Virus record (IMG/VR): IMGVR_UViG_3300025133_000600
Coordinates: 1 to 23,676 of that record
DNA from: a virus
DNA: 23,676 nt
Reading direction: 5' to 3' (one strand)
Both the position numbers and the translations under genes were made by a program. The notes under the pieces are model-generated. The model made no database searches. It was not told where the DNA came from and worked only from the letters and a program-made list of their open reading frames with translations. Shown piece after piece: positions 3,231-20,372 of the stretch (position 1 is the first letter of the stretch; each line of letters opens with the position of its first letter).

Positions 3231-3238
3231 TATTTATT
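3231..3238 (+). promoter_or_regulatory. Candidate phage late promoter element upstream of phoH
   Basis: The sense-strand motif TATTTATT lies in the 65-base gap between fcl and phoH, 32 bases before the phoH start codon. It matches the TATTTAT(A/T/C) element found before several other genes in this window. Its function as a promoter is inferred only from recurrence and position. Confidence 0.35.
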
Positions 3239-3270
3239 GTTAGAACAAACTATAGTTTTAATAGCAATAT

Positions 3271-4131
3271 ATGAGTAGAAAAAAGTTATCCCTTGAAGAA
3301 CAAAGTGAATACTACGGTATTCTTCAAGAAATGCAGAAGAGGAAAGATAATTTTATCGACCTTATCCGAGTCAACATTAAATGTAAATCTGAGAACCAAA
3401 AAAAATTAGTTAAACTAATACGTGAAAAAGAAGTGGTTATCTGTTCAGGGTTGGCTGGAGTCGGTAAGACATACCTAGCTTGTGCCGAAGCACTTAGGTT
3501 AGTAAAGAATAACGCCAAATACCAAAAGATTGTTATTGTTAAATCTGTAACAACGTTAAAGAACGAGGAGATTGGATTCCTAAAAGGTGATTTACAAGAA
3601 AAGATGGCTCCGTTTATGTTTTCGTTCTTTCATAACTTTGAGAAGTTGATTGGTAAAGAATTAACCAATAAACTACGATATGAGGGTGTCATTGAGGAGC
3701 TACCAATTGCCTATATGAGAGGCATAAATTTAGATAACTCTATCATCATCATAGATGAGGCTCAGAACATCACAATAGACAACATAAGGACAATACTCAC
3801 CAGACTCGGGAAAGACTCTAAGATGATCTTTTTGGGGGACAGAAAGCAGGTAGATATGAGGAATCGGCAAGAAAGTGCTTTAGACTTCCTTTTAGTAGAA
3901 TTCCAACACATAATAGAGATAGGTGTTATAGTTTTGGACCATAACGATGTTGTAAGAAACCCTTTAATTAAAAAGATTGAGGAAGTATTTGATAGGTTAG
4001 AGGAGAAGGAACAAAATAAACCTATGCCGTCTGGACAAACCCAAAATAGAGTAATCAAAAAGAGGACACCTGATAGAACATTAAAAGCTAGGTGGTTAAG
4101 ACTTAAACGTAAAATAAAAAAACAATTCTAA
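3271..4131 (+). CDS. phoH: PhoH-like P-loop ATPase
   Basis: This is a PhoH-family NTPase of 286 residues. The Walker A motif GLAGVGKT is at residues 60-67, the Walker B motif IIIIDEAQN at 158-166, and a conserved LGDRKQVD segment begins near 188. The order and spacing match the helicase-like PhoH domain. The domain fills roughly residues 40-230. The C-terminal tail (about 235-286) is short and strongly basic, perhaps for nucleic-acid binding. PhoH genes are common in environmental tailed phages and in Bacteroidota. Proposed roles are RNA metabolism or phosphate stress, but the phage function is unsettled. A candidate promoter lies 32 bases upstream, suggesting separate expression from the sugar genes. 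Confidence 0.93.
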   Translation: MSRKKLSLEEQSEYYGILQEMQKRKDNFIDLIRVNIKCKSENQKKLVKLIREKEVVICSGLAGVGKTYLACAEALRLVKNNAKYQKIVIVKSVTTLKNEEIGFLKGDLQEKMAPFMFSFFHNFEKLIGKELTNKLRYEGVIEELPIAYMRGINLDNSIIIIDEAQNITIDNIRTILTRLGKDSKMIFLGDRKQVDMRNRQESALDFLLVEFQHIIEIGVIVLDHNDVVRNPLIKKIEEVFDRLEEKEQNKPMPSGQTQNRVIKKRTPDRTLKARWLRLKRKIKKQF

Positions 4132-4180
4132 TCTTTATTTTATAACCTATTAGTTTATATTTTACTTAAATCTTCTTATT

Positions 4181-4783
4181 ATGGTTGTAGGCATTGATTT
4201 AAATGATGTTATCAGAGATTTTACGGGTAAACTTGGGTTAGTAGTTGAAAAATATTTGGAAAGAGAGGTTCCGGATAAGTTGGAGACGTATAACCTTGTT
4301 GATGAATATGGGTTCACTGGTGGCACAGAAGAATTAAATAGTTTTTTATATATTGAAGCCTCATTAGAGATTTTTGGTCATGCATCAGAAAAAGAAAGGA
4401 ATATAACACAAAAAATTATAAATCTAAATGATCACCTATATGATACTGGTGATACCCTACTTATAATAAGTAAGGAATTGAATATGTCAAAACCGGCAAC
4501 ATACTTTTTCTTATCAAAAACAATTGCTAAAGTAAACAACATAAAATTTGTTAGAACAGAAGAAGAATACTGGGATCATGTGGATATACTAATAACTGCA
4601 AATCCTATTATATTAGACAACAAACCCGAAGATAAGATATCAATAAAGCAAATATATTCATATAATAAAGATTGTGAGTCTGATTACACCATAAATGGTT
4701 TCGACGAGGTTGTTGAAGATGACTACGCTTTATTATATAAAGCATCAAAAACAAAGACCATTGGGTTTACAGAGATAGAATGA
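4181..4783 (+). CDS. HAD-superfamily-like protein (nucleotidase-like), uncertain activity
   Basis: The 200-residue protein opens with GIDLNDVIRDF, which resembles motif I of HAD phosphatases (DxDxT/V). The first Asp (Asp6) is kept, but the second position is Asn8. Later segments fit the HAD order: a strand ending in Ser97 (LLIISKE), a possible Lys113, and a DILITANP segment at 135-142 in place of the terminal acidic motif. The layout resembles small 5'-nucleotidase-type HADs. The Asn substitution would remove the usual general acid/base, so it may be catalytically altered or have become a binding protein. Its stop overlaps the next start as ATGA, indicating translational coupling. The family call is made by eye. 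Confidence 0.5.
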   Translation: MVVGIDLNDVIRDFTGKLGLVVEKYLEREVPDKLETYNLVDEYGFTGGTEELNSFLYIEASLEIFGHASEKERNITQKIINLNDHLYDTGDTLLIISKELNMSKPATYFFLSKTIAKVNNIKFVRTEEEYWDHVDILITANPIILDNKPEDKISIKQIYSYNKDCESDYTINGFDEVVEDDYALLYKASKTKTIGFTEIE

Positions 4784-5103
4784 ATTACGAATTGTTAGAT
4801 ATAGGTGGTAAACTTTACTTTATTGATCTGAAGAGTATATATGAAGCCGTTAAAGTCCCTAATGAAGGTGTTGTTAGGGATAACAAAGGCAACATAATAA
4901 GAGCCGATAGAGAAATCGATATTTCCAGATGGGAGGTTGTCAAAACAATGATTGAAATCGTATTAACGCCAGAAGCTGAGATTGACGATAGGATGGGGTT
5001 TATTGGTTTAAATAACAGTGTTAGCGTACCATTCAAAGTTGCGTTTAATACATTAATAATGTATGGTATCTTAAAAGAGATTCACTATGGAGAACAAAAT
5101 TGA
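4780..5103 (+). CDS. Hypothetical protein
   Basis: A 107-residue protein that I do not recognise. It is mixed alpha/beta with no evident signal peptide or membrane segment. It begins at the ATGA overlap with the HAD-like gene and overlaps the following glycosyltransferase gene by 17 bases, so the three genes look like one translationally coupled unit. Reading through the overlaps with intact frames supports it being real. No function is proposed. Confidence 0.7.
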   Translation: MNYELLDIGGKLYFIDLKSIYEAVKVPNEGVVRDNKGNIIRADREIDISRWEVVKTMIEIVLTPEAEIDDRMGFIGLNNSVSVPFKVAFNTLIMYGILKEIHYGEQN

Positions 5104-6193
5104 AAACATTAAAAATGGTTTAGAAAACCTAAAAAACAATAATTATAAAATATATTACTTCGTTCCAGATACAAAAGGGAATGCAATTGCATCTGTTGCC
5201 AACACATATGAACATGTGAAGATATTACGTGAAAATGGAATAGACGCTTGTTTATTACACGAAAAGAATGATTATCTATTATACGGTGACGATAAAGGAA
5301 GTGGTATCGCCGATTGGTTGGGTGAAGAATATGCCAAACTACCACATTATAGTGTAGAAAAAAATGAGGTCAACGTTGGACTGGGAGATTTCGTAGTAAT
5401 ACCTGAAATATTCTCCAATGTTATGGAATCCACAATTAACTTCCCAGCAAAAAGAATAGTATTTGCACAATCGTATGATTATATATTAGAGATATTAGAT
5501 TTTGGTAAAAGCTGGAAAGATTATGGTATCACAGATGTTATCACAACTAGCGGATCATTATCCAACCAAATAAAAGGATTATTTGGGGAATTAAACATAC
5601 ACACAATACCATGTGCAATATCAGATAAATTTACTAAATCTGATATACCTAAAAAACCATATATTGCAATACACACTAGGGGTGGCGAAAAAACTAGCAG
5701 AATTATAAAGTCTTTCTTTTTAAAATACCCCCAATTTAGATGGATTACATTCAGAGACATGAAAAGTATGAGTGTACAAGAGTTTGCCGATGAATTAAAA
5801 GATTGTTGTTTGGCTGTTTGGGTTGATGACATTTCTAGTTTCGGTACATTCCCTTTAGAATGTTTCAAAACTGGTGTCCCCGTTATTGGTGTTGTACCTA
5901 ATTTGGTACCTGAATGGTTAAAAGGTGAAGGTGACACAATCAAAGAAAATGGTATATGGACAAATAATGTATTACAGATACCAGATCTAATAAACATAGC
6001 GTTTAAGTCTTGGATGGAAGATAACATACCAGAATCCATTTATAAAAACATGGAAGACTCTGTTAAATTATACACACCTAATTTGATGAATACTGTGTTA
6101 GTGTCTTACTATAAGAATCTAATCAAAGAAAGGCAAGCTGAACTATCATCCATACTAATAAACGAAGAAAAACAACAACCTGTTGTATCATAA
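5087..6193 (+). CDS. GT-B-type glycosyltransferase
   Basis: A 368-residue protein with a two-Rossmann GT-B layout. The N-terminal domain (about 20-175) begins KIYYFVPDTKG and contains an EHVKILRENGIDACLLH segment typical of GT4-like acceptor domains. The C-terminal domain (about 188-340) contains SSFGTFPLECFKTGVPVIG, the usual donor-sugar-binding region, with Glu258 in the conserved position. It probably transfers a sugar from a nucleotide donor. Two genes that make GDP-fucose lie nearby, but neither donor nor acceptor can be named from sequence. The gene starts inside the preceding gene. It is followed after 21 bases by a second, GT-A-like gene. Confidence 0.78.
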   Translation: MENKIENIKNGLENLKNNNYKIYYFVPDTKGNAIASVANTYEHVKILRENGIDACLLHEKNDYLLYGDDKGSGIADWLGEEYAKLPHYSVEKNEVNVGLGDFVVIPEIFSNVMESTINFPAKRIVFAQSYDYILEILDFGKSWKDYGITDVITTSGSLSNQIKGLFGELNIHTIPCAISDKFTKSDIPKKPYIAIHTRGGEKTSRIIKSFFLKYPQFRWITFRDMKSMSVQEFADELKDCCLAVWVDDISSFGTFPLECFKTGVPVIGVVPNLVPEWLKGEGDTIKENGIWTNNVLQIPDLINIAFKSWMEDNIPESIYKNMEDSVKLYTPNLMNTVLVSYYKNLIKERQAELSSILINEEKQQPVVS

Positions 6194-6214
6194 TAAAAAT
6201 ATAAAACCGATAAA

Positions 6215-6988
6215 ATGAATAATATAACACTTATAATACCGGTTCATTCTATAGATAATGGGTTGGACAAATTATTAGATAAAGCCGTTAAAAGCGTAGA
6301 AGATTCTATAGTTAAACCAGATAGTTTAATTATTGTTCACGCAAAAAACGCTAAGATAAAGAAACAAGTATCTGGGTATAAAATTCCTGATGTTGACATC
6401 AAACTAATTGAGAACTCTGGAGACACCTCATTCCAAGTACAACTAAACTTAGGTGTGGAAAATGTAACCACAACTTATTTTTCTTATTTAGCAATGGATG
6501 ATGAAGTATCTAAGATATGGTTTAAGAACGTAGTAAATAATATAAAATATGAACAAGATGCTGCTTGCTTCCTACCAATAAATGTTGAGACCGATATGAA
6601 CGATAATTTTATTGGTTTCACTAACGAGATTGCTTGGGCAACTGGTTTCTCAGATAAGCAAGGGTATTTGGATAACAACGCTGTTCTAAACTACTTCAAC
6701 CTAACTTTTGATGGTATGGTTATCAAAAAAGAAGTTTACGATGAGATAGGTGGTATTAAATCTAATATTAAACTAACATTTATTATAGAATTCTTTTTAC
6801 GTTTAACGTATAACGATTATCAAGTTAAAGTAATACCAAAAATAGGTTATAAACACACCAATCAAAGAGAAGGATCTCTATTTGTTGAATATAAGAAAAC
6901 CATAGGTGGGGAAGAATCCCAATTCTGGTTAAAGACGGCAAAAAAAGAGTACTTCTTCACTGAAGATAGAGAAATAACGGCATATTAA
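6215..6988 (+). CDS. GT-A (family 2-like) glycosyltransferase
   Basis: A 257-residue protein starting with the beta-strand NNITLIIPV that opens GT2-type domains. An AMDDE segment at 93-97 matches the DxD-like motif that binds the metal and nucleotide sugar. A basic and aromatic C-terminal half follows. It is near the minimum size for a single GT-A domain, with no membrane segment, so it should be cytoplasmic. It probably works with the adjacent GT-B enzyme in building or attaching a glycan. The acceptor is unknown and could be a virion protein, DNA or a host surface polymer. The next gene follows after only nine bases. Confidence 0.72.
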   Translation: MNNITLIIPVHSIDNGLDKLLDKAVKSVEDSIVKPDSLIIVHAKNAKIKKQVSGYKIPDVDIKLIENSGDTSFQVQLNLGVENVTTTYFSYLAMDDEVSKIWFKNVVNNIKYEQDAACFLPINVETDMNDNFIGFTNEIAWATGFSDKQGYLDNNAVLNYFNLTFDGMVIKKEVYDEIGGIKSNIKLTFIIEFFLRLTYNDYQVKVIPKIGYKHTNQREGSLFVEYKKTIGGEESQFWLKTAKKEYFFTEDREITAY

Positions 6989-6997
6989 ATAAAGTAC

Positions 6998-7711
6998 ATG
7001 GCAAGGAAAAAGACCACAAACATGTATTTTGGGCCCGAACAAGAGGAGGCAGTTATTAGATTTTTAGGAGAAGAAGATCCTGATGTGAGAAATAAAATCT
7101 ATTATCACCATCTAATGCATCCTTTAAACAAAATGATCGAGTCCATAATCAGACGTTATAAGTTATATCGCAAAGATATAGCTTTTGAAGATGTTCACGC
7201 TGATACTCTTTCATTTTTGATCACAAAATTCGATAAATTTAAACCAGAAAAGGGTAAGAAGTCTTACTCTTTTTTTGGTACTATATGTAAGAACTATTTA
7301 TTGGGGCAACTTATAAAGTACGATAAGATGTCCAAGATAAATTTATCATACGAAGATGTTTACACACATGTGAATAACAGAGACGATATGATTTATTATA
7401 TCGATAATTACGAAGTTAAATTAGATTCTTTAATGGGTGATATAATATTGGGTATTAAAGAAGAACTTATAACGGGTAATTTAAATGAAAATGAGGTTAA
7501 AGTTGGTCATGCCATAGTAACCATATTCGAAAATTGGGAAACTCTATTCGAAAAGGTAGATAGTGGTAACAAATACGCAAAAAATCTAATATTATCGTAT
7601 GTTAGAGATCTAACTGGGTTATCAACAAAAGATATTAGATTATCAATGAGGAAATTCAAAAAGATGTATTTCTTCATCAAAGACGATAAAATCAACAAAG
7701 GGCTATTATAA
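6998..7711 (+). CDS. 55: Late-transcription sigma factor, gp55-like
   Basis: A 237-residue protein whose middle part (about 45-110) resembles sigma-70 region 2. It has a helix with IIRRYKLY, then an acidic FEDVHADTLSFLITKFDKF stretch, then SYSFFGTICKNYLLGQLIKYDK, which matches the core-binding and promoter-melting helices of sigma factors. In T4, gp55 is a reduced sigma factor of 185 residues that directs RNA polymerase to late promoters. The size, the lack of an obvious region 4, and the T4-type head genes in the same window favour the gp55 role. If correct, it should recognise the TATTTAT-type elements described here. An ECF-like sigma of other origin is the alternative. Confidence 0.72.
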   Translation: MARKKTTNMYFGPEQEEAVIRFLGEEDPDVRNKIYYHHLMHPLNKMIESIIRRYKLYRKDIAFEDVHADTLSFLITKFDKFKPEKGKKSYSFFGTICKNYLLGQLIKYDKMSKINLSYEDVYTHVNNRDDMIYYIDNYEVKLDSLMGDIILGIKEELITGNLNENEVKVGHAIVTIFENWETLFEKVDSGNKYAKNLILSYVRDLTGLSTKDIRLSMRKFKKMYFFIKDDKINKGLL

Positions 7712-7725
7712 ACTTACCTCACAAA

Positions 7726-7733
7726 TATTTATC
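7726..7733 (+). promoter_or_regulatory. Candidate phage late promoter element
   Basis: The sense-strand motif TATTTATC lies in the 36-base gap after the sigma gene, 14 bases before the next start codon. It is followed by an A-rich stretch. It is assigned by recurrence of the motif before other genes, and initiation here would give a very short leader. Confidence 0.35.
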
Positions 7734-7747
7734 TAAAAAGAAGTATT

Positions 7748-8119
7748 ATGAGAGGAAGACCAAAGAAGAAGAAAATTGAGCTAAACTCAGAGAGTTTGGT
7801 GTCACTGATGCAAGAGATATATAATGATTGTACAGAACAAAGAAAAAGAGCTCTAACAGATATCAATGAACGTAAAGCCATGGCTGAGATGGATAACACT
7901 ACAGACATATACCAAGTTGGTAAAGTAAACAACGAATCTCTTAAACTAATTGACTCAGTTATTGAGAAAAAATTATCGTTAGTTAAATTACAATCACAAT
8001 TGATGGACACCAATGATGGCGAATCATCTGCTGGGTTCTTATCTGATAACGATAAAGAACTACTTAGAGATATTGTTAAAGAGCAAGAACAAAAGAATAA
8101 CATAAAATATGATATCTAA
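7748..8119 (+). CDS. Small charged protein with AT-hook-like N-terminus
   Basis: A 123-residue, mostly helical and highly charged protein that I do not assign to a family. The N-terminus RGRPKKKK (residues 2-9) has the GRP core and basic flanks of an AT-hook, which suggests binding to the minor groove of AT-rich DNA. The rest is rich in Lys, Glu and Leu with coiled-coil character. It follows the sigma gene, after a candidate late promoter, and precedes a probable structural run by three bases. It could be a late-transcription accessory protein, a virion DNA-binding protein or a small structural component. None can be decided from sequence. Confidence 0.65.
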   Translation: MRGRPKKKKIELNSESLVSLMQEIYNDCTEQRKRALTDINERKAMAEMDNTTDIYQVGKVNNESLKLIDSVIEKKLSLVKLQSQLMDTNDGESSAGFLSDNDKELLRDIVKEQEQKNNIKYDI

Positions 8120-8122
8120 ATA

Positions 8123-9754
8123 ATGTCCGAAACTAAAAAAGTAAAAGAGTTTTTCAATAATAAATTAGATGCAGTAAAAGCTGTTATTGACACACCCAAA
8201 GCTAAGAAAACCATTTCTTTTTTAAGGGCAGTTATGACAAGTGGTAGGCTTAGTGGTAAAGACTTACTTGAGTTTCTATTAGAGATAGTATCTAAAGACA
8301 CTTCGGAAAAAATCAATAAAGGGATAACAAAAGCTAAAGATATTAAAAACAGAGTTAAAAACTCACCAAGCGAAAATGAGATAAGGGATCATCTTAAAGA
8401 AAAAAGAACACAACTTAAAGAAAATATTGGTGAGAATATGCCTCCACAATTAAAAGTTATTGTTGGTATCATACTAACGTCGGTAGCGTCATTATCAATA
8501 TTGGTTAAAAAAGCAGTATATTGTTTATTCCCTTGTGATATGTACCCAAAACTTCCTGACTTTCTTATTACTAATGGTATAAACATACCAGTTAATTATA
8601 TGGACTTCTTTGATATGTTTACTTATGACCCTGACAGTAATGAAGGTAAGATGATGTATAACTCTTTAAGGTCTAACCCTAATGGTGATATGAACACCGC
8701 ATTATTTAACACAATACAGAATGGTACTGGACAATGGAAAACATTTTTTGATTTCACTTACATAGAAAGTGGTGGATATACGATCCCTTCACAATTTCCT
8801 AACTCTTTAAATGCCGACACTGTGTGGCAATTAGATGTTATAAACATAAAAGTACAACAAAGTTGGCAAAATAAGTCTTTAAATAAATTTATGGGTGACT
8901 TATTAAACTCCATGACTTTATTTAGTATGAAACAATTATTTGCAGATACACTAAGTATAATATTTAATTCATTTCATAACGCCAAATCTGATGTTGTTGT
9001 TGCGGCACAAGCAAAATTAAATGCAATTAGAAACAAACAAGCGGTTTTAATGTTTATAGATAAAATACAGTCATGGGATGACGATAGTGAAATGGAAATA
9101 GATAATAGTTTCTTTGAATTTAATTCTGAACAACTAAATGAGTTAGAAGAAAATGTGGAGAAGAGAAAAAGAGGTATTATGACTTTTGAAGATTGTGAAA
9201 ATTTAGATGTTAAAGTAGATTTCAACGATATGGAAGGTATGATATTAGAGTTCGAAGAAGCACCCACATTTAAAGAACAAAAGAAAGTGTTAGAAGATTC
9301 TTTCACTTATATGTTGGAGAACAGTGATGGTGATTTCAACAACAGTAACTGGTTGGCTCAACAAATACAATTAGTGTTGGCGTTTTTAAAGGCGTTTATA
9401 AAGGCGATGATATTACAACTAATATCACCAAAAATGGTATTGTATTTTTACACTTATTTATATCTAAGAGAAGGTGGTAATTTAAAAGCTTTTATTGAAA
9501 ATCCTGCCAACATAAAAAAACCAAAAATTATTGAATTTTTAGAGAAGTTAAAACAACCAATAATTGATTTAATAAAAGGTGTTATATTTGGTTATTTCAT
9601 ATATTTTATATTAAAAAAATTAGTCATACCATTCGTTAAAAAATTAGTATCTGGTTTCATATCGTTATTAAAAAAAGAAAAGCGTGAGGCTGATAAACAG
9701 GTGTTGGAATCTATAATGTTACCTCCAACAATAAGTCAATTAAAAGGATCATAA
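8123..9754 (+). CDS. Large protein with hydrophobic segments, probably virion-associated
   Basis: A 543-residue protein of unrecognised family. The N-terminal 100 residues are charged and helical. A hydrophobic segment spans about 111-128 (VIVGIILTSVASLSILV). A central soluble region (about 140-400) is rich in Asn, Asp and aromatic residues. The C-terminal 140 residues carry hydrophobic stretches near 418-450 and 490-515 interspersed with Lys. There is no N-terminal signal peptide. It is flanked by three-base and one-base gaps in a run that leads to a baseplate-like gene, so a structural or membrane-contacting tail role is inferred from context only. A membrane-active injection protein is one possibility. 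Confidence 0.7.
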   Translation: MSETKKVKEFFNNKLDAVKAVIDTPKAKKTISFLRAVMTSGRLSGKDLLEFLLEIVSKDTSEKINKGITKAKDIKNRVKNSPSENEIRDHLKEKRTQLKENIGENMPPQLKVIVGIILTSVASLSILVKKAVYCLFPCDMYPKLPDFLITNGINIPVNYMDFFDMFTYDPDSNEGKMMYNSLRSNPNGDMNTALFNTIQNGTGQWKTFFDFTYIESGGYTIPSQFPNSLNADTVWQLDVINIKVQQSWQNKSLNKFMGDLLNSMTLFSMKQLFADTLSIIFNSFHNAKSDVVVAAQAKLNAIRNKQAVLMFIDKIQSWDDDSEMEIDNSFFEFNSEQLNELEENVEKRKRGIMTFEDCENLDVKVDFNDMEGMILEFEEAPTFKEQKKVLEDSFTYMLENSDGDFNNSNWLAQQIQLVLAFLKAFIKAMILQLISPKMVLYFYTYLYLREGGNLKAFIENPANIKKPKIIEFLEKLKQPIIDLIKGVIFGYFIYFILKKLVIPFVKKLVSGFISLLKKEKREADKQVLESIMLPPTISQLKGS

Positions 9755-9755
9755 A

Positions 9756-10283
9756 ATGGGATTTAAAGATAAATTAAAAAGTTCGGCATTAAATATTGAT
9801 GAGGCAAAAGTAGATGATTTAAAAAACCATCTAAAAAATAAGGTAATAAACATAGATAACATTGACCCATGTTCTGATAACCCCTTTAATGTATCGTTTA
9901 AAGATGTTTTAAAGGAGTTACAACAATTGTTTACTATAATGTTCCCTAACACACCTATTATCTCAGCAACAAATGTTTATTTTGGTAATAAAAAAAAGGG
10001 TGGGATGTCGGAAGCTAGAGAGACTGCAAAATATTTAGAACATATGAAAGGTTTAGGTGTAACCATAGATGCTTTTGAGGATGGGACACCAAACATATTC
10101 GCACAATCAGTTTTCAAAAAAAATGAAATTAGAAATGAGGAGTATAGAAAAAATATGAAGGTAACTATGGCTCTGAGGGCTGGAGGTTTAATATTTAAAG
10201 GTGTTGGAGCTTCTGCGGCAGGGCCGGTAGATGTTACAGGGCAAAACATAAATTTTCCTTTAGGTTATGGGGGTGTTGAATAG
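9756..10283 (+). CDS. Hypothetical protein in structural gene run
   Basis: A 175-residue protein of unknown family. The first 45 residues are helical and charged. A middle segment contains FTIMFPNTP and ISATNVYFGNKKKGG. The C-terminus is rich in Gly and Ala (GLIFKGVGASAAGPVDVTG) and could be an extended or assembly-dependent tail. Its start is one base after the previous stop, and its last 17 bases overlap the next gene, so it is tightly coupled to its neighbours. Context suggests a virion or assembly protein. No domain is recognisable. Confidence 0.7.
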   Translation: MGFKDKLKSSALNIDEAKVDDLKNHLKNKVINIDNIDPCSDNPFNVSFKDVLKELQQLFTIMFPNTPIISATNVYFGNKKKGGMSEARETAKYLEHMKGLGVTIDAFEDGTPNIFAQSVFKKNEIRNEEYRKNMKVTMALRAGGLIFKGVGASAAGPVDVTGQNINFPLGYGGVE

Positions 10284-10458
10284 AAAAGAAAAATTAGAAG
10301 AGAAGTCAAACAATCAGATATTGGTTGAGATGAGAGAAATGCGTTTGGAGCATGACTCCATCAAAGAATCTATGATGAAGAGTTTAACAGAACTTGAAAA
10401 AATAGAAAAGAAATATGATGACTTTAATAAAGAGTTATATAATAGGTTAAAAGTTTAA
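10267..10458 (+). CDS. Small coiled-coil protein
   Basis: A 63-residue protein, almost entirely charged helix with heptad-like spacing of Leu, Ile and Met from about residue 18 to 60, so a coiled coil is likely. It starts inside the end of the preceding gene (17-base overlap) and ends five bases before the next start, filling the space between two coding regions in a tightly packed run. This arrangement supports a real gene despite its size. Its function is unknown. It may be a small structural or chaperone-like component of the tail module. Confidence 0.6.
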   Translation: MGVLNRKEKLEEKSNNQILVEMREMRLEHDSIKESMMKSLTELEKIEKKYDDFNKELYNRLKV

Positions 10459-10462
10459 AGTT

Positions 10463-11734: not shown

Positions 11735-11735
11735 A

Positions 11736-11743
11736 TATTTATA
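11736..11743 (+). promoter_or_regulatory. Candidate phage late promoter element
   Basis: The motif TATTTATA, with an A before it, starts two bases after the preceding stop codon and lies 12 bases before the next ATG. An A-rich segment follows. It is an exact match to the commonest form of the recurrent element in this window. Confidence 0.4.
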
Positions 11744-11755
11744 GTAAAACAAAGT

Positions 11756-13174: not shown

Positions 13175-13201
13175 GTTTACTAAAAAAAAATAATATAAAC
13201 T

Positions 13202-13231
13202 AACCACAGCATTTATCGTTGTGGTTTTTTT
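13202..13231 (+). terminator. Rho-independent terminator of the plus-strand structural run
   Basis: A nine-base-pair stem (13202-13210 with 13218-13226, one G-U pair) closes a seven-base loop and runs straight into a T tract to 13231. It lies 27 bases after the stop of the beta-rich protein gene. Confidence 0.85.
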
Positions 13232-13246
13232 ATGCGCATAAAAAAA
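13225..13246. repeat. Perfect 22-bp palindrome between convergent terminators
   Basis: Six T, then the ten-base palindrome TATGCGCATA, then six A make a perfect inverted repeat. It joins the T tract of the plus-strand terminator to the A run that serves as T tract for the minus-strand terminator, so the two signals share sequence and can form a third hairpin on either strand. Confidence 0.85.
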
Positions 13247-13267
13247 GGGGACACCTAAGTATCCCCT
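13240..13267 (-). terminator. Rho-independent terminator downstream of gp23
   Basis: Read on the minus strand, a six-base-pair stem (AGGGGA with TCCCCT; 13262-13267 with 13246-13251) and a ten-base loop are followed by seven T. It lies 23 bases after the gp23 stop codon and faces the plus-strand terminator. Confidence 0.82.
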
Positions 13268-13290
13268 GATTTCTTTAAACAAGATATTGA

Positions 13291-14883
13291 TTATTTCAAC
13301 AAACCAGTTCCAAAAGAGAACACGTTGTCAACTTTGATCTTACCGTAGAATCTGGCGTTAACCATTTTCTTAGCATATCTTGTCATAATTCCTTTCACTG
13401 GAGCGAAAGTGAATGGGTTGTACATAGTTGGCGTAAGTTGTAACGGCACGTAAGGTGCGTATACATAACCAGTGTCCAACATAGATTTACCTTTGTGACC
13501 AACCAATATAGTATTAGCTGGAGCGTAAGGATCTCTATATACTTGATATCTACCACCTAATGACCCTATTTTCTCAATACCCATATTGTATTGATCTTGT
13601 TCTGAATCGGCGTTAGAAACGTGGAAATACTCTAAATCGTCAAAAATTGCAGATACTTCTGAAGATACAACGATGAAGTTAGCACCACCTCTAAGTGTAG
13701 ATTTATGAATTTGAGCAGAAATCTGATTGATTTTTGTAATCAATGTTTGATTCCAGTCTTTTTGAGTGTAACTATAAGCTGCTGAACCACCTGCTTCAGT
13801 TTTCCAACCCTCATAATTCCATTTAGCAGACCAAGCGGCACCACTTCTAAGATCTCTAAGGATTTCCCTATCGATTTCAGCGGCAACTTGTTCTGAAAGT
13901 AAAGCTGTTAATTCAGCCTCAGCATCGATGTTGTGGAATGCACTAACATCTTGTGCTAATTCTGGAGACCAGCTAGCTCTCAATTTCCTTTCTGTTACAG
14001 AAACAGTAACGTCCTGCATTTCAAAAGTAACTTCAGCCATTGAAGTTTCCATCTCAAGAGAATTATATGTGTTCCAAGTTACAGTATATGCATCAGTTTT
14101 TACATTAGCGGAATATCCACCGTTAGCAGAAGGAACTGTTAAATCAACAGTAATTCTCATATAATTAGATGCTGAATCTAAACCAGCTAAACCTTTACCA
14201 TATGCTGGCAATTCAACTGCGAATCCGTCTCTACTTCCACCGATAGCTATTGAAGATAAAAATTCTTCAGAATCCATCTCATGTCCATCAGGACCTGTAA
14301 GTTTACCCTGACTAGTTGATGTAAATCCTGTCATATCAAAAGATACGCCACCAAGTGCAACACCGTTTACTGTAACATCACTAGGATTATTTAATGATGG
14401 GTTGATAATTTGTGAGTTAGTAGACGAAACACTACCTTTAGATCTATCATATAAACCATCCTCATAGTACTCATCATACAAACTCTTAGTACCATAAGAA
14501 CCTGTACCAGCAGTCAAAGAATTATTAGCACCACCATCAATATGTCCAGTACTTACTTTAGGTACAAAGTAAAATAATTTACCAATCGGCATGTTCAAAG
14601 CTTGAACAGACACGATATCGTTAGCCAATAATTTAGAGAATACTCTCCTTACTATTGGGAATACAACTGTTTCGAAAGCACCAGAGCCACTAGCTTCAGC
14701 GTTCTCGTTCAACATTGTAGAAGCTTGGTTTTCATATAATTGAGCGATATTCTCTCTTACATGTCCTTTCAAGCCGTCTAAGAATCCAAGACCTTCCCAT
14801 TTTGAGATGGTATTGCTTCTTACTTGTCTCATGTGGTCTAAGTTAGTATTACCAACTTTACCACTATTTAATAAATGTCCCAT
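13291..14883 (-). CDS. 23: Major capsid protein, gp23-like
   Basis: The 530-residue protein forms the hexamers of the T4-type head. The segment around residues 70-110 (VFPIVRRVFSKLLANDIVSVQ, shown here as its two halves VFPIVRRVF and LANDIVSVQ, followed by MPIGKLFYFVPK) is the signature of gp23 homologues. The length is close to T4 gp23 (521). The N-terminal 60 residues look like the cleaved propeptide, with LNE (58-60) matching the L/I-x-E cleavage rule of the gp21 protease encoded nearby. The start ATG is preceded by an A-rich leader with no Shine-Dalgarno sequence. It lies 34 bases after gp22 and is probably co-transcribed with it. No gene 24 vertex paralogue follows it here, and transcription ends at a strong terminator. 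Confidence 0.95.
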   Translation of the reverse strand: MGHLLNSGKVGNTNLDHMRQVRSNTISKWEGLGFLDGLKGHVRENIAQLYENQASTMLNENAEASGSGAFETVVFPIVRRVFSKLLANDIVSVQALNMPIGKLFYFVPKVSTGHIDGGANNSLTAGTGSYGTKSLYDEYYEDGLYDRSKGSVSSTNSQIINPSLNNPSDVTVNGVALGGVSFDMTGFTSTSQGKLTGPDGHEMDSEEFLSSIAIGGSRDGFAVELPAYGKGLAGLDSASNYMRITVDLTVPSANGGYSANVKTDAYTVTWNTYNSLEMETSMAEVTFEMQDVTVSVTERKLRASWSPELAQDVSAFHNIDAEAELTALLSEQVAAEIDREILRDLRSGAAWSAKWNYEGWKTEAGGSAAYSYTQKDWNQTLITKINQISAQIHKSTLRGGANFIVVSSEVSAIFDDLEYFHVSNADSEQDQYNMGIEKIGSLGGRYQVYRDPYAPANTILVGHKGKSMLDTGYVYAPYVPLQLTPTMYNPFTFAPVKGIMTRYAKKMVNARFYGKIKVDNVFSFGTGLLK

Positions 14884-14917
14884 TTTTTATAAATGTTTAA
14901 TTTAAATTATTATTATA

Positions 14918-16198
14918 TTAGCATCTACCAATTCTATCCATCAACGATTTGATGGCGTTTACTTGTGGATCAACATACGCTGTTGACTCATTCAAGTTAG
15001 CAGAGCCTTGTGTCACAGTCTTATTGACACTCTCGTCAATAGTTTCAACAACACTCTTATTTTCGTTCAATTCATTACAAATTGACTTATATAACCCCTT
15101 AGAGCCCTTTAAGGATTCAACTAGGTCGAATCTTTTAAGAATACTAAGCTTTTCTTTCTTAGAAGTCGAATGTTCTGTAAACAACCTTGTTGCGTACGCT
15201 AAGTTTGAGTTAAAAACTGCTACCTCATTCAACTTATTTCTGAAAACTTTAAGAGCTTCCTTATATTCTCCATTTTTGGATTTAAGGTTCTCCATCTCAG
15301 AAATTAGAACTTTATATTCATCAGATTTGGTTATTGTAGATTTACCTTTTTTACTTTCGTCAACAGCAATGTGTGAAGGAGCAGATCTAGGTTTGCTCAA
15401 TCCACCTTTTCCATGAGATTTCCCATTTCCAAGAGTTCTTGAACCTTCCTCAACTGCATCTTCTTCTTCATTTGTTTCGTCAACCTCAGTAACTTCTTCA
15501 GTTTTCTCATCAACTTTGTCTTCTTCTGTAATCTCTTCAGTTTCCTCAGTGATTTCTTCAGTTTCCTCAGTGATTTCTTCTGATTCGTCAAAAACTATTT
15601 CGTAAATAGGTTCTTCTTCATCCATTTCTTCAGTAGATTCATCATTTTCGGATTCTCCTACACCTTTAACAATGTATTCAGCACCAGTTTCTTTGTCAGA
15701 GATTTCAACTCCATCGTCAGTTTTAACAACAACGATTTCATCAGAATCACTCATGTCCTTAAATATTTTAAGTACATCGTCATCACTAGCATCTGTTAAA
15801 TCCAATTCATCCTCACCAGCGTCAGGATCTCCTAACATTTCTGGTTCTGGAAGTTCGGGCATTTCTAAATCCACACCTTCTTCATCTTCAGGAGCTTCAA
15901 GATCTTCGATCTCGTCACCACCTTCAATATCTGCAGGCATTTCAATGTCCATGTCCATGTCCTTGTTACCTTCTTCGTCGTCTTCCAAATCAGCTAAGTC
16001 TAGCTGTTCTTCTACGTTTCCGGTCTTACTCAAATCGTTCTCTTCGATAGTATCTTCTTTTAAAGATTCTTTCACTAAATTGCCAATTTCTTGCTTAAAT
16101 GTTGTAGCAAGTATTTCTTTCGTATTGCTTTTAAGAGCCTCTTCGATTTGTTTCGCTTCTAATAAAGCTTCTTCTAGTATTGATTTCTTTTCGGCCAT
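14918..16198 (-). CDS. 22: Prohead core scaffold, gp22-like
   Basis: The 426-residue protein lies between the protease and capsid genes, as gene 22 does in T4. Residues about 50-260 are extremely acidic (Glu/Asp runs with Met, Pro and Leu) and include a tandem EITEETE repeat. A short basic Gly/Ser linker follows (about 265-290), then a helical, coiled-coil-like C-terminal half containing NLAYATRLFTEHSTSKKEK, typical of T4-type scaffolds. The scaffold forms the inner core on which gp23 assembles and is then degraded. Many L/I-x-E tripeptides give gp21 cleavage sites. It is longer than T4 gp22 (269), mainly through the acidic region. A candidate promoter and a 5' hairpin lie upstream. Confidence 0.85.
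   Translation of the reverse strand: MAEKKSILEEALLEAKQIEEALKSNTKEILATTFKQEIGNLVKESLKEDTIEENDLSKTGNVEEQLDLADLEDDEEGNKDMDMDIEMPADIEGGDEIEDLEAPEDEEGVDLEMPELPEPEMLGDPDAGEDELDLTDASDDDVLKIFKDMSDSDEIVVVKTDDGVEISDKETGAEYIVKGVGESENDESTEEMDEEEPIYEIVFDESEEITEETEEITEETEEITEEDKVDEKTEEVTEVDETNEEEDAVEEGSRTLGNGKSHGKGGLSKPRSAPSHIAVDESKKGKSTITKSDEYKVLISEMENLKSKNGEYKEALKVFRNKLNEVAVFNSNLAYATRLFTEHSTSKKEKLSILKRFDLVESLKGSKGLYKSICNELNENKSVVETIDESVNKTVTQGSANLNESTAYVDPQVNAIKSLMDRIGRC
15531..15587 (-). repeat. 22: 21-bp in-frame tandem repeat inside gp22
   Basis: Two copies of a 21-base unit (15531-15551 and 15552-15572), differing by one base, are followed by a partial third. The unit encodes EITEETE on the minus strand. 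It expands the acidic region of the scaffold in frame, consistent with slippage or unequal exchange. Confidence 0.85.
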
Positions 16199-16240
16199 TT
16201 TATCAATTATTTTAATATTATTATTACCTTAATAGGTTTA

Positions 16241-16263
16241 TGCGGTGGACATGTGTCCCCGCA
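16241..16263 (-). promoter_or_regulatory. Strong hairpin in gp22 leader, probably at the 5' end of the mRNA
   Basis: Five pairs (16241-16245 with 16259-16263) and four to five further pairs (16247-16251 with 16254-16258) form a GC-rich stem with a single bulged base. On the minus strand it starts eight bases after the TATTTATA element and lies 42 bases before the gp22 start. A transcript from that element would begin at or near the stem. On the plus strand the same stem is followed by eight T and would act as a terminator of antisense transcription. Confidence 0.65.
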
Positions 16264-16271
16264 CTTTTTTT

Positions 16272-16279
16272 TATAAATA
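16272..16279 (-). promoter_or_regulatory. Candidate late promoter element for gp22-gp23
   Basis: TATTTATA on the minus strand lies 73 bases before the gp22 start, between the terminator after gp21 and the leader hairpin. It is followed by an unbroken A run. Its place after a terminator makes it the clearest candidate for an independent promoter of the abundant scaffold and capsid messages. Confidence 0.5.
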
Positions 16280-16292
16280 TGTGTGATTGTAC

Positions 16293-16318
16293 AAAAACGT
16301 TGTTTTTTTAACGTTTTT
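16293..16318 (-). terminator. Terminator after gp21
   Basis: A perfect nine-base-pair stem (AAAAACGTT with AACGTTTTT) around an eight-base loop ends in a run of five T on the minus strand. It begins two bases after the gp21 stop codon. The AT-rich stem is modest, so partial read-through into gp22 is likely. Confidence 0.6.
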
Positions 16319-16320
16319 CT

Positions 16321-17004
16321 TTATTTTAGGAAATCATCTAAACCGTCTGTTAAAAGCTTAGAATCATCTTTTTGTTCACTCTCTACAAAAGGTCTGGCTT
16401 CTTCCTCACTTTTGAATATCCAAGAACCTGGTGTTGAAGGGGCTGTAACCACATCCCAACATATCAATTCGAAGTCATCTTGAACTATATTTTTACCGTT
16501 TTTCTTCTTTAAAGAACCAACACCTCTTGATGATACACCAAGTCTAATACCTTTTCTTATTAAATTAGCTATATTATCACCTTGACAAGATATAATACCC
16601 TTTGTAACGTAGCCCGGTGACATAAGAACCTCTATCTTTCCCATAACGGTGTTGGTTTCCCACCAAGTTTCTAATACGTTGTGTGATACTCTATCGACGG
16701 CAATAATAGAGGACTCTGGATGGTCAGCTTCACCTATTGCTCTTTTCTCTTTAATAAGTTGTTGGTATTTTTCTAATTCTCTTTGTAGTATTTCTCTTTC
16801 GTATATTCTACCATTTCTATTCTCTACATTACACTTCTGTAATACTGCAGTTAAAACTAACGGTTCTGATATAACCTGTTCTCCTCTTTCTAGTTTGGAC
16901 ATTTCAGTGATAAACCTTCTGTTATCTCTAGGATCAATATAACCAGCGTCATATTCTACTAATAACCCCTTTTTCCCGTATTCTCCAGGTCTGATAATTT
17001 TCAT
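16321..17004 (-). CDS. 21: Prohead core protease, gp21-like
   Basis: The 227-residue serine protease (MEROPS S80 type) degrades the scaffold and trims capsid proteins before packaging. The catalytic His95 is in GEADHPESS, and the catalytic Ser is in GVSSRGVGSL (Ser158 or Ser159). A downstream acidic residue (Asp184 in CWDVVTAPS) may be part of the active site. The length is close to T4 gp21 (212). The N-terminus begins at the ATG preceding KIIRPGEYG, with a candidate promoter 12 bases upstream. It lies in the T4-like order before gp22 and gp23 and is followed by a terminator. Confidence 0.93.
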   Translation of the reverse strand: MKIIRPGEYGKKGLLVEYDAGYIDPRDNRRFITEMSKLERGEQVISEPLVLTAVLQKCNVENRNGRIYEREILQRELEKYQQLIKEKRAIGEADHPESSIIAVDRVSHNVLETWWETNTVMGKIEVLMSPGYVTKGIISCQGDNIANLIRKGIRLGVSSRGVGSLKKKNGKNIVQDDFELICWDVVTAPSTPGSWIFKSEEEARPFVESEQKDDSKLLTDGLDDFLK

Positions 17005-17016
17005 ATTAGATTTTTA

Positions 17017-17024
17017 AATAAATA
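17017..17024 (-). promoter_or_regulatory. Candidate late promoter element for gp21
   Basis: TATTTATT on the minus strand, preceded by A and followed by an A-rich stretch, lies in the 39-base gap between the 146-residue gene and gp21, 12 bases before the gp21 start. Confidence 0.4.
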
Positions 17025-17043
17025 TAACCGGGATTGGAAAGTA

Positions 17044-17484
17044 TTACACTTTCTTTAGGTGAAAGCTGAAATCATCGTTTGTTTCCAGAACATCATGAAG
17101 TATTTTCCCACATAACACTTCTAACTCATCTTTCATCTCTGATGAGTTCACTGGTAACATTTTCTTTTGGAACATTACGGCTTCACAACACATAAAACTT
17201 CTTTTGTCGTTTGATATACCTGATGAACGTAAGTCTAGATCCACAATGGTTGATTTTGTTTTAAACAATGACCCATCTAAATTAGTAAAAAGACTTTGTC
17301 TAACGTCTCTTCTAATTTTATTGATTTTGTTTTCGTAATTCTTTTTATCTTCTACTTCGAATATTGGTTCTCCCCAAGTTGAAATATTGATATAAACAGA
17401 TTTTGGGTTCTTGTTATCCACAGTCCCAACACTTGTTTTATAATTGTGATTTAATGTTAAATTTAATTCTTTCCCTCTTTTCAT
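17044..17484 (-). CDS. Hypothetical protein between portal and protease
   Basis: A 146-residue protein that I do not recognise. It appears mixed alpha/beta: strands near 6-40 (LNLTLNHNYKTSV, SVYINISTWGEPIFEVE), a basic helix (NKINKIRRDVRQSLF), then a strand and helices rich in Cys and Met. There is no signal peptide or membrane segment. It stands between a 259-residue unknown and gp21, roughly where T4 has small core genes 67 and 68, but sequence similarity to those is not evident. A Bacteroidota-type promoter may lie just upstream, which would set it apart from its neighbours in timing. Confidence 0.7.
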   Translation of the reverse strand: MKRGKELNLTLNHNYKTSVGTVDNKNPKSVYINISTWGEPIFEVEDKKNYENKINKIRRDVRQSLFTNLDGSLFKTKSTIVDLDLRSSGISNDKRSFMCCEAVMFQKKMLPVNSSEMKDELEVLCGKILHDVLETNDDFSFHLKKV

Positions 17485-17519
17485 AGTAATATATAGTTAT
17501 ATTATCATTATTTATATGA

Positions 17520-17551
17520 CAAATATACTAAATAGTGGGCGAAAAGTCAAT
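17520..17551 (-). promoter_or_regulatory. Candidate host-type (Bacteroidota) promoter
   Basis: On the minus strand, ATTG (17548-17551) is followed after 20 bases by TATATTTG (17520-17527). This matches the Bacteroidota primary-sigma pattern of TTTG near -33 and TAnnTTTG near -7 in both sequence and spacing. The predicted start lies about 30 bases before the 146-residue gene. Each half occurs by chance often in AT-rich DNA, so the support comes from spacing plus intergenic position. Confidence 0.4.
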
Positions 17552-17554
17552 TGG

Positions 17555-18334
17555 TTACTTTTGTATTAGATCTAACCTTAGAGTATTTAGTTTTACTATG
17601 TTGTTTGTGTATTCATCAGTGGAAAAATTAAAGTTTAATAATTTCTCTTTAACTTCTAATAATTTTTCTTTTGTGTCTACGTCTGATGTTTCTGTTAGAC
17701 GAGTGTTTACTAATGTGATATTTTCGTTAATTAAATTTGTGTGTAACTCTTTCTTTTCTTCTGGGCTTCCTTTGATAACTGTTTTGACAATCTTTTTCTC
17801 TCCTTCTGCCAATTCGGAGTATTTTCTATTGTATTTATTTGCCGCCAGTTTCGATATTAGTGATAATGGAACTTGAGCTCCAACCCAATCAACTTTATTT
17901 ACAGAATCATCTTTATTCACTAATAGATGATCTTTAATTGTGTTGAAGGATTCATGAATCTCTTCTATTTTCGTTACATCATCCTCATTTATAATGACAT
18001 CTATGAATTTCCATAACTCGTTTGTAGACTCAATAACTTCAATGTTGTTTTCTTTTAATAGATTAGTTAATTTTAGGTTGCATTTCTTTATGTTGTTTAA
18101 ACCTAATTTTTCAATTAGTCTAATATTTGTTTTAATATATTCTCTAGCCTCATCTGGTGTGTCAAAACTTCTTTTAGTGAGATTTTCATACATAAAATAC
18201 TGAGCCTTTAATGGTTTCTCAGTTTTTAATAATTTAAAAAATTCTTTTATAATTTTTTTCTTGGTAGTGTCTTTGGTTACTACGTGATCATACACTAATG
18301 AATCCAACGTTGATTTTAAGCTGCTAAAAGTCAT
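17555..18334 (-). CDS. Hypothetical helical protein between portal and protease
   Basis: A 259-residue, Lys- and Glu-rich, predominantly helical protein with no recognised domain, signal or membrane segment. A short less charged stretch (VDWVGAQVPLSLISKLAANKYNRKY, given here only as its core WVGAQVPLSLI) falls at about 150-160. Position after gp20 and before gp21 corresponds to T4 genes 67/68, which encode prohead core proteins, so a minor core or head-assembly role is possible (inference from order only). A TATTTATA element lies 17 bases upstream of its start. Confidence 0.7.
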   Translation of the reverse strand: MTFSSLKSTLDSLVYDHVVTKDTTKKKIIKEFFKLLKTEKPLKAQYFMYENLTKRSFDTPDEAREYIKTNIRLIEKLGLNNIKKCNLKLTNLLKENNIEVIESTNELWKFIDVIINEDDVTKIEEIHESFNTIKDHLLVNKDDSVNKVDWVGAQVPLSLISKLAANKYNRKYSELAEGEKKIVKTVIKGSPEEKKELHTNLINENITLVNTRLTETSDVDTKEKLLEVKEKLLNFNFSTDEYTNNIVKLNTLRLDLIQK

Positions 18335-18351
18335 AATATTGCGTTCTTTAT

Positions 18352-18359
18352 TATAAATA
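18352..18359 (-). promoter_or_regulatory. Candidate late promoter element
   Basis: An exact TATTTATA on the minus strand, preceded by G, lies in the 42-base gap after the portal gene and 17 bases before the start of the 259-residue gene. Confidence 0.42.
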
Positions 18360-18376
18360 CTCTCGTTTTATTAAAA

Positions 18377-20302
18377 TTATTCCACTAGGTCGTCAATATG
18401 TTTGATCATATCACCTATTTTTCGTTTTTGTTCCTCATTTTCTAGTTCTATATTAGGGGAACTACCGTCACTCGGTGCGGCCATCTCTATATTCTCAGTA
18501 AGTCTATCAAAATACTTTTTAGTATACTTTTTCTTTTTGTTTTGTAAATCCTCTTTAATTATGTTTTTCTTCTTCTCTATTGTCTCTGCTAATGGTTCTT
18601 CACCACCTTCAGCGGGTGCTTCTTCACCACCCTCTACTGGTGGTATATCCATTCCTCCACCACCACCTTCAGCACCAAAGTCTGGCCCAGCACCTAATGT
18701 ATCTTCAGGTTCTAATACCTCACCACTCGGTGCTGCACCTGCAGGTTCTTCTTCACCATATATTTTATCAATCTTATCGAAGATACCAGATTTTTTAATA
18801 ACAGTTGCCGTTTGTTCTAATTCAGCAGCAGCTGCTTTCTCTATTCTTTGTTGTTCAAGATCCAATTTAATCTCATCATCGGACATCCCTAATATCTCTC
18901 TTTTTGCTTTAGTCATAGACATTGAAGCAAAACCATTACCAGCATCTGAAACAGCATCTCTAAATAATGTCACCTTAGATTGTAAGTGTTCCATCTTTAA
19001 CATCTCAGCTTGAGTAGAAGGGTTATTTAATACTAACGAAAAGTTATCCAACTCATCTTCTAACCCCAACATATATAAATGTATGATTGCGATTTTATTT
19101 AATTCTTGTAACATCGCTTGTTGAACTCTATTCACAGAACGAGCAAATCTCACATCTTGTAATGCTAAGTTCTTACCTTCACCCGTTGCTTCCTCGAATC
19201 CTAAGAACGTTTTAGGTATTCTAAGAGCGGCAAATAATTTCTTTTGTAGGTATTCCACATCGGCAATCTCAGATAGATTGGCAGCACCAGGTAATGTATC
19301 AATAGGGCTATTGGCGTTTGGATCCCTAACAGGGATGAAATAATCTTGGTCTTGTGCCAATTGATTATAACGAGTATCAATTTGTCCAGTTGCTTGATCA
19401 ATAACAGGTGTCCTCTTAAATCTATTGGCAACTTGTTGTACATATTGCTCTACATCGGCATCATCGATGTTACCAACAAATATCTTAAATATACGTCTTT
19501 CTGGCGCTCTGGTAACCCTATATATCAACATAGCGTCTTCAGATAACAATAACTGTTTCCAAATTCTTCTAGCTTTCTCTAATATGGATGTACCATAAGG
19601 TAATCTTCTATCGTCACCTAATAAACGGAAATGGGCTATCTGCCATGAATTGAATTCATATTCTTTAGATTTCCAAATAAATTTTAATCCCGGTAATTTA
19701 GGGTCTTCTTCTGTAGGCTCTAAATGTTTTCTTCTTACATTATCAAACAATTCTCCCTCTCTTCTTTCCATATCAATGTTAGGTAATTGTTTAACACCAA
19801 TAATACCGTCATCATTATCAATTTGTAAATAAAGAAAATTATCACCATATTTACAAATATTCCTAACCCATGCCGGTAAAGAAGTGTTTATGTCTAATCT
19901 TTTATTGAAAAGAGTATCTAATATGTTTTTAACTCTTTGACTCTCAGAATATATTTTAAGTATCTTACCACTTTCATCTGGTGTTGTAGATTCTTCCATA
20001 AAGATATCTAAGGCAGCTGCAATTTCAGGATAAAATTCCATAGCTTCAAAATCCGTATAAGATGCCAATCTTGTTGTTTCGTAATTTACAGCTTGTTGGT
20101 ACAACTCGCTGTCAACTTTCATCCATTGATTCTTAAGGTATAAACCTTGTTGTCTTTCTAGCTTTTCTTTATCGTAAGCTTCTTTGGACTTTGTCGTAAG
20201 TAACTCCTTTTTTATGTTGTATGTGGACTTTGTTTTTGGACCCTCAGGACCGAATAACCTTGTCAATCTCTGCCATACTGTATAATTCTTTTCTTGAGCC
20301 AT
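18377..20302 (-). CDS. 20: Portal vertex protein, gp20-like
   Basis: The 641-residue protein forms the dodecameric portal through which DNA is packaged and to which the tail joins. The region about 80-520 shows the T4-type portal pattern, including EIAAALDIFMEES, NICKYGDNFLYLQ, PYGTSILEKARRIWKQLLL and a RAPERRIFKIFVGN strand (gp20 wing, stem and clip). The C-terminal 110 residues add a Gly/Pro/Glu-rich low-complexity linker (near 545-585), a Lys-rich segment, and an acidic end. T4 gp20 has 524 residues, so this tail accounts for most of the extra length. It lies after terminase, with several promoter-like elements in the 82-base gap between them. Confidence 0.93.
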   Translation of the reverse strand: MAQEKNYTVWQRLTRLFGPEGPKTKSTYNIKKELLTTKSKEAYDKEKLERQQGLYLKNQWMKVDSELYQQAVNYETTRLASYTDFEAMEFYPEIAAALDIFMEESTTPDESGKILKIYSESQRVKNILDTLFNKRLDINTSLPAWVRNICKYGDNFLYLQIDNDDGIIGVKQLPNIDMERREGELFDNVRRKHLEPTEEDPKLPGLKFIWKSKEYEFNSWQIAHFRLLGDDRRLPYGTSILEKARRIWKQLLLSEDAMLIYRVTRAPERRIFKIFVGNIDDADVEQYVQQVANRFKRTPVIDQATGQIDTRYNQLAQDQDYFIPVRDPNANSPIDTLPGAANLSEIADVEYLQKKLFAALRIPKTFLGFEEATGEGKNLALQDVRFARSVNRVQQAMLQELNKIAIIHLYMLGLEDELDNFSLVLNNPSTQAEMLKMEHLQSKVTLFRDAVSDAGNGFASMSMTKAKREILGMSDDEIKLDLEQQRIEKAAAAELEQTATVIKKSGIFDKIDKIYGEEEPAGAAPSGEVLEPEDTLGAGPDFGAEGGGGGMDIPPVEGGEEAPAEGGEEPLAETIEKKKNIIKEDLQNKKKKYTKKYFDRLTENIEMAAPSDGSSPNIELENEEQKRKIGDMIKHIDDLVE

Positions 20303-20321
20303 AAAATTTGTTTAACCTAAA

Positions 20322-20372
20322 TATAAATACTAATGTCTATAAATAAACAAAAGATAGTTTTATTAATAAATA
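20322..20372 (-). promoter_or_regulatory. Cluster of three candidate late promoter elements before portal gene
   Basis: On the minus strand, TATTTATT (20365-20372), TATTTATA (20338-20345) and TATTTATA (20322-20329) occur within 51 bases of the gap between terminase and portal genes. The nearest is 19 bases before the portal start, a spacing similar to the elements before other genes. Confidence 0.45.

Follow-up and report, generated by a model that had tools for sequence, protein, structure and literature searches.

The closest described system is the late promoter of phage T4 (TATAAATA, served by gp55, gp33 and gp45), in whose structure bases −12, −9 and −8 enter pockets of the phage-encoded sigma factor gp55 (PMC7892883). 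The consensus can drift within the superfamily, as Aeromonas phage Aeh1 and other reported T4 late variants show (PMC2988020). RM378 and the Far-T4 phages belong to a distant branch of the T4 phages, to which similarity of the portal connects the phage studied here. In the contigs of Far-T4 phages Roux et al. (2015) detected no T4 transcription-regulation core genes and did not settle how these phages are transcribed (PMC4360716). Here we analyse a stretch of viral DNA of 23,676 bases (the window), which is the entire IMG/VR record IMGVR_UViG_3300025133_000600 and probably a fragment of a bigger genome, and in it the heptamer TATTTAT, put forward as a candidate late promoter in a preliminary description made from the letters alone. 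That proposal is well supported by sense-strand enrichment, gene-by-gene conservation, a bias towards virion genes, adjoining terminators and leader hairpins, and the presence of a gp55-family sigma factor. We read TATTTAT as a −10-only late promoter of a Far-T4-like lineage, recognised by the phage's own gp55-family sigma (probability about 0.83); from these patterns we infer that it acts as a promoter and does so late in infection. The literature searched does not describe TATTTAT as a late promoter of phages.

Like the T4 late promoter, TATTTAT is a single −10-like element with no −35 element, stands before virion genes on both strands and is accompanied by a phage-encoded gp55-family sigma. 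The preliminary description had related it to the reverse complement of TATAAATA, a step that is not needed: read in the same direction, TATTTAT and TATAAAT differ at two central bases only (TT here, AA in T4) and, if aligned, have A(−12), A(−8) and T(−7) in common. The Aeh1 variant is changed at −13/−12 (PMC2988020), whereas TATTTAT is changed at −10/−9. On both of its strands RM378 (L015, L186, L187) carries TTATTTAA(A) immediately ahead of genes (TATTTAA, 34 against 2.25 expected), which looks like RM378's own gene-start promoter and of which no report was found in the literature; it shares TATTTA with the window motif, its last base is A rather than T, and the RM378 sigma belongs to another family, PHROG 1740.

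TATTTAT copies in the window

The nine sense-oriented intergenic copies listed in the preliminary description were all recovered and are given below with the distance from motif end to start codon. The spacing of 12–32 bases that it reported for most of them holds for five of the nine, the copy at 3231 lying just outside it.

3231..3237, plus strand: TATTTAT before phoH, 33 nucleotides (nt) to the start codon; good flanks, not conserved (3/26 phoH orthologues)
7726..7732, plus strand: predicted late promoter before g7748, the first gene after the sigma gene; 15 nt to ATG; motif in 25/25 orthologues
11736..11742, plus strand: predicted late promoter before g11756; 13 nt to ATG; 28/28 orthologues; top flank score of the window
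16273..16279, minus strand: predicted late promoter of the scaffold–capsid operon; 74 nt to the scaffold start; 67/67 orthologues; a leader hairpin follows
17018..17024, minus strand: predicted late promoter preceding the gene for the head maturation protease; 13 nt to ATG; 44/45 orthologues
18353..18359, minus strand: predicted late promoter before g17555; 18 nt to ATG; 16/16 orthologues
20323..20329, minus strand: the copy closest to the portal gene; 20 nt to ATG; motif in 29/44 portal orthologues
20339..20345, minus strand: third copy before portal, 36 nt to the start codon; probably incidental, its flanks resembling those of background copies
20366..20372, minus strand: second strong copy before portal; 63 nt to ATG; flank score equal to the 90th percentile of conserved-set sites

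The copies at 7726, 11736, 16279, 17024 and 18359, together with the portal leader (20329 and/or 20372), are likely promoters, and those at 3231 and 20345 are doubtful. The nine sense copies compare with 1.44 expected in the 759 noncoding bases of the window gaps, a count reached by none of 1000 shuffles, and a single antisense intergenic copy lies at 17509. Over the whole window TATTTAT is not enriched (17 copies against 15.7 expected), which bears out the earlier caution that position matters, the signal being carried by position and strand. Coding copies had been placed near 1339 and 9450; such copies do occur, the second in fact at 9455, and others lie at 969, 2516 (minus), 7295, 17832, 22235 (minus) and 22948 (minus). 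TATTTAT ranks first of all 7-mers in the sense upstream pieces of the window, and thus the signal is independent of the motif choice made in the preliminary description.

Enrichment and conservation in related phages

Relatives were collected with a capsid-alignment search (80 loci) and a sigma-alignment search (79 loci). In the sense upstream pieces of the 80 capsid loci TATTTAT was the most over-represented 7-mer, with 390 copies where a second-order Markov model predicts 76; antisense copies numbered 106. These counts are not independent because the loci have common ancestry. As a positive control, the same script run on the T4 late region returned TATAAATA as its top 8-mer. The sole strongly enriched and sense-biased single-base variant over the two locus sets combined was TACTTAT (63 against 17.4 expected), which may be a lineage-specific promoter form; in the upstream regions of the sigma loci (L101–L166) it often appears as CTTTACTTATA.

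Sense copies have flanks of their own, with A at −1 in 72% and a run of A over +11 to +13 in roughly 70%: an A before the core, a W after it and AAA from 4 nt past it are found at sense copies only and are missing from other copies. The profile of 403 sense copies contained no −35 consensus. A weak G/T-rich signal some 13–22 nt upstream might have been taken for a −35 element, but this was rejected, as it coincides with the 3′ arm and T-run of terminators.

Conservation follows particular gene boundaries. The motif precedes all or nearly all orthologues of scaffold, g11756, g7748, g17555 and protease (counts above) and 17/24 of terminase, and is nearly absent before capsid (2/54), g17044 (3/49), phoH, g4181 (3/34) and g5087 (0/20), boundaries with gaps comparable to those of the five near-100% ones; gene calls came from a simple open reading frame script, only orthologues preceded by 30 or more noncoding bases were counted, and here too common ancestry keeps the numbers from being independent events.

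Enrichment and strand bias upstream of genes, which the preliminary description had proposed to check genome-wide, were found in two complete genomes, those of Flavobacterium phage immuto and phage Mel-JY01, which share TATTTAT mainly at virion genes. Gene classes were assigned manually from annotation, and gene function served to call genes 'early' or 'late'. In immuto the motif lay within 70 nt of 13/43 genes with virion or lysis functions, compared with 2/37 for replication or metabolism (P = 0.004); in Mel-JY01 the counts were 10/35 and 1/25 (P = 0.015). The signal stands just ahead of the virion genes in a large group of T4-like phages, with known hosts including Flavobacterium, and very probably acts as their late switch. 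For Far-T4-like phages this would supply a defined late promoter and a sigma candidate, together with a sequence-only rule for annotating late genes.

A candidate reader of the motif

6998..7711, plus strand: gp55-family sigma gene, the proposed promoter reader; Sigma70_r2 and PHROG 234 matches within its family; T4 gp55 as best PDB match

The gp55-like sigma that the preliminary description pointed to is present; its relationship to T4 gp55 is only a distant one, and it carries an additional C-terminal part. Genes of this family occur in the window, immuto, Mel-JY01 and many relatives. Pfam Sigma70_r2 matches 34/54 family members (best 3.1e-05; the window protein itself E = 0.0021, below the Pfam cut-off) and PHROG 234, 'late sigma', matches 22/54 (best 8.8e-07), the window protein having no PHROG match. 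The best PDB sequence match was T4 gp55 (7d7c; E = 0.011, or 0.12 with a larger profile). An AlphaFold model had a mean predicted local distance difference test score of 85.6 and a predicted template modelling score of 0.46, and its top Foldseek matches were mostly RNA polymerase sigma chains; because these matches were all weak (best E = 0.044), we claim only a sigma-like fold for the modelled protein. The protein exceeds T4 gp55 by about 50 residues, and its all-helical C-terminal part resembles a helix-turn-helix by eye, with no match to Pfam region 4.

Residues lining the A(−12) pocket of T4 gp55 are mostly kept in the family; pocket residues that are largely retained are L54 (to I), R57 (R in 37/54), F86 (F/Y) and Y97 (Y/F). 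N13 and H95, which line the −9 pocket, are replaced by G/T and Y/F, and these replacements fit the change of the −9 base from A to T; F at position 95 is also found in cyanophage S-WAM1. Among the acidic residues that bind RNA polymerase, E70 and D74 are mostly D/E, and E77 is replaced by S or N. An altered −10 element paired with altered residues in structurally defined gp55 pockets makes promoter–sigma co-evolution directly testable. Unlike in T4, no gp45 clamp (PHROG 223) was detected at E ≤ 0.1 in the complete immuto, Mel-JY01 and RM378 genomes, a highly diverged clamp being possible, with control values in the same search of 3e-86 for T4 and 6e-59 for S-WAM1. Mel-JY01 carries annotated clamp-loader genes despite this.

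Some observations weigh against TATTTAT as a promoter read by gp55-like sigma. Before portal and terminase the exact core is missing in about one third of orthologues; T99, the residue that touches A(−8) in T4, becomes G/S though the base is unchanged; and the motif and the sigma are tied to each other by co-occurrence, from which we infer recognition by the gp55-family sigma, as we do initiation and timing from the patterns around the motif. Co-occurrence, together with the weak similarity to T4 gp55, also leaves some room for a true late promoter with another reader, a phage-remodelled host sigma or a different phage sigma. We consider this unlikely, given that no sigma other than the gp55-like protein is recognisable in the window, that its family matches Sigma70_r2 and the late-sigma PHROG, and that the aromatic residues of the promoter pockets are conserved.

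That TATTTAT works as a single-element, sigma-dependent late promoter is the strong part of our reading; membership in the T4 late system is weaker, since the T4 consensus is not matched and no T4-type clamp was found. It is possible, and suggested here only tentatively, that this is a T4-like branch whose late promoter was rewritten to TATTTAT and whose longer, possibly two-domain sigma acts with no T4-type clamp. Late expression in such a branch would not be coupled to replication in the T4 manner, which raises the question of whether the T4 sliding-clamp coupling is general.

Terminators, leaders and probable transcription starts

Of the sense copies, 89/401 have a terminator-like site upstream; the corresponding figures are 7/83 for other copies (P = 0.004) and 21/294 for control genes (P = 3e-8). 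The T-runs of these sites cluster 16–20 nt ahead of the motif. Downstream, strong stems are present in 17/52 long leaders, compared with 9% of shuffles, and of these 17 leader hairpins 13 start 4–10 nt past the motif. In the window the predicted scaffold-leader hairpin is:

16240..16264, minus strand: leader hairpin, a predicted fold whose 5′ arm lies 8 nt past the promoter core

Immuto, Mel-JY01 and other relatives have predicted hairpins in the corresponding position. Terminators that end just upstream and hairpins that begin 4–10 nt downstream indicate that the motif marks transcription starts, and the terminator, hairpin and distance data fit a start about 6–8 nt past it.

We also weighed a signal at the level of RNA, such as a translation enhancer or an RNase cleavage site near start codons, and regard it as quite improbable. 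The motif is often 10–24 nt before a start codon in AT-rich leaders, as such a signal might be, but the distance spans 4–114 nt, and the capsid gene, expected among the most expressed virion genes, lacks the motif despite a median gap of 32 nt. The terminators abutting the motif, the hairpins at a near-fixed offset and its replacement by a host-type promoter at g17044 (below) likewise speak against an RNA signal.

Under the promoter reading, A-TATTTAT-W-NNN-AAA would be a sense-strand −10 element without a conserved −35 partner, at which RNA polymerase with the gp55-family sigma probably opens the DNA and starts about 6–8 nt downstream. Virion genes would then have short leaders, and those of the scaffold–capsid operon would be longer and often capped by a hairpin; early genes would be served by host-type TTG/TAnnTTT promoters.

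Predicted host-type promoters in the same phages

17520..17550, minus strand: predicted host-type promoter TTGAC-N18-TATATTTG before g17044, read from the sequence and an internal contrast to the late motif

Gene g17044, of unknown function, is embedded in the head module. Upstream of its orthologues TTGAC occurs in 34/49 (2 antisense), 22 of them with the full TTGAC-N-TAnnTT, and TATTTAT in only 3/49; conservation of TTGAC suggests that the gene may be expressed early or constitutively. Early-region genes of immuto have a separate two-part element, AGTTGC-N~20-TATATTTAGG, consistent with a host-type early promoter. Between 60 and 77 kb of immuto (L012) about 20 early elements of near-identical sequence, AGTTGCY-N-TATATTTAGGTATCAATAAT, stand before small unknown genes, and in Mel-JY01 (L014, L017–L019) CTTGCATA (9 against 0.05 expected) and CAACCTAACA recur upstream of genes.

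Could TATTTAT itself be a form of the Bacteroidota housekeeping promoter, with TTG at −33 and TAnnTTTG at −7? Both are AT-rich, and the immuto early promoters contain the similar TATATTTAGG; elements resembling the sigma-A promoter are indeed present in these phages, at early genes and at g17044. That promoter is, however, a two-element one of other sequence serving another gene class. The sigma-A elements are found at g17044 of the window and not at TATTTAT sites, whose profile has no −33 TTG and many of which do not show TA at the two positions required by TAnnTTTG, and the two promoter classes mark different genes, so that we hold this explanation to be very improbable.

A still poorer case can be made for T4-type TATAAATA promoters on the opposite strand producing antisense transcripts. 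It draws on TATTTATA being the exact reverse complement of TATAAATA, yet terminators, leader hairpins, start distance and the A-rich flank are all organised in the sense direction, and sense TATAAAT, the T4 orientation, is at background (111 against 105 expected). Chance in AT-rich gaps, which the ordinary whole-window count might suggest, can be practically discounted, as composition-matched shuffles, Markov models and antisense counts do not account for the signal and the relatives refute it.

Gene content of the window and further observations

The plus-strand genes of the window include two sugar epimerases, phoH, a glycosyltransferase and the sigma; the minus-strand genes form a T4-type head module of capsid, putative scaffold, protease, two unknown genes, portal and terminase.

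13291..14883, minus strand: major capsid protein gene (PHROG 138, 3.8e-67), inside the operon and with no promoter of its own; motif in 2/54 orthologues
14918..16198, minus strand: putative scaffold gene, named from its position between protease and capsid and its acidic composition

The scaffold gene is putatively driven by the 16279 promoter, the motif standing before all scaffold orthologues. A DNA-level search of the scaffold–protease region among phages gave no match. Two hairpins at 13190–13265, between the convergent gene blocks, are probably back-to-back terminators.

By portal comparison the nearest named relatives are Mel-JY01 and immuto, with RM378 more distant, and it is the relationship to RM378 that would place the lineage in Far-T4. 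The recorded host of Mel-JY01 is Microcystis, which is unexpected given its similarity to a Flavobacterium phage.

Some relatives carry a structured leader RNA of about 110 nt with three helices, in which 13/20 pairs show compensatory changes. It had no Rfam match at E ≤ 0.1 and was not found in the window. In most copies it lies downstream of TATTTAT, which agrees with the promoter reading, and it precedes a gene family with KSRLKVY...LRPGQRVFLDRF.

L089:2313-2427(+), L095, L075, L066, L082, L051, L039, L040: copies of the structured leader RNA
L124, L109, L055, L068, L129, L027, L025, L121: further matches to it

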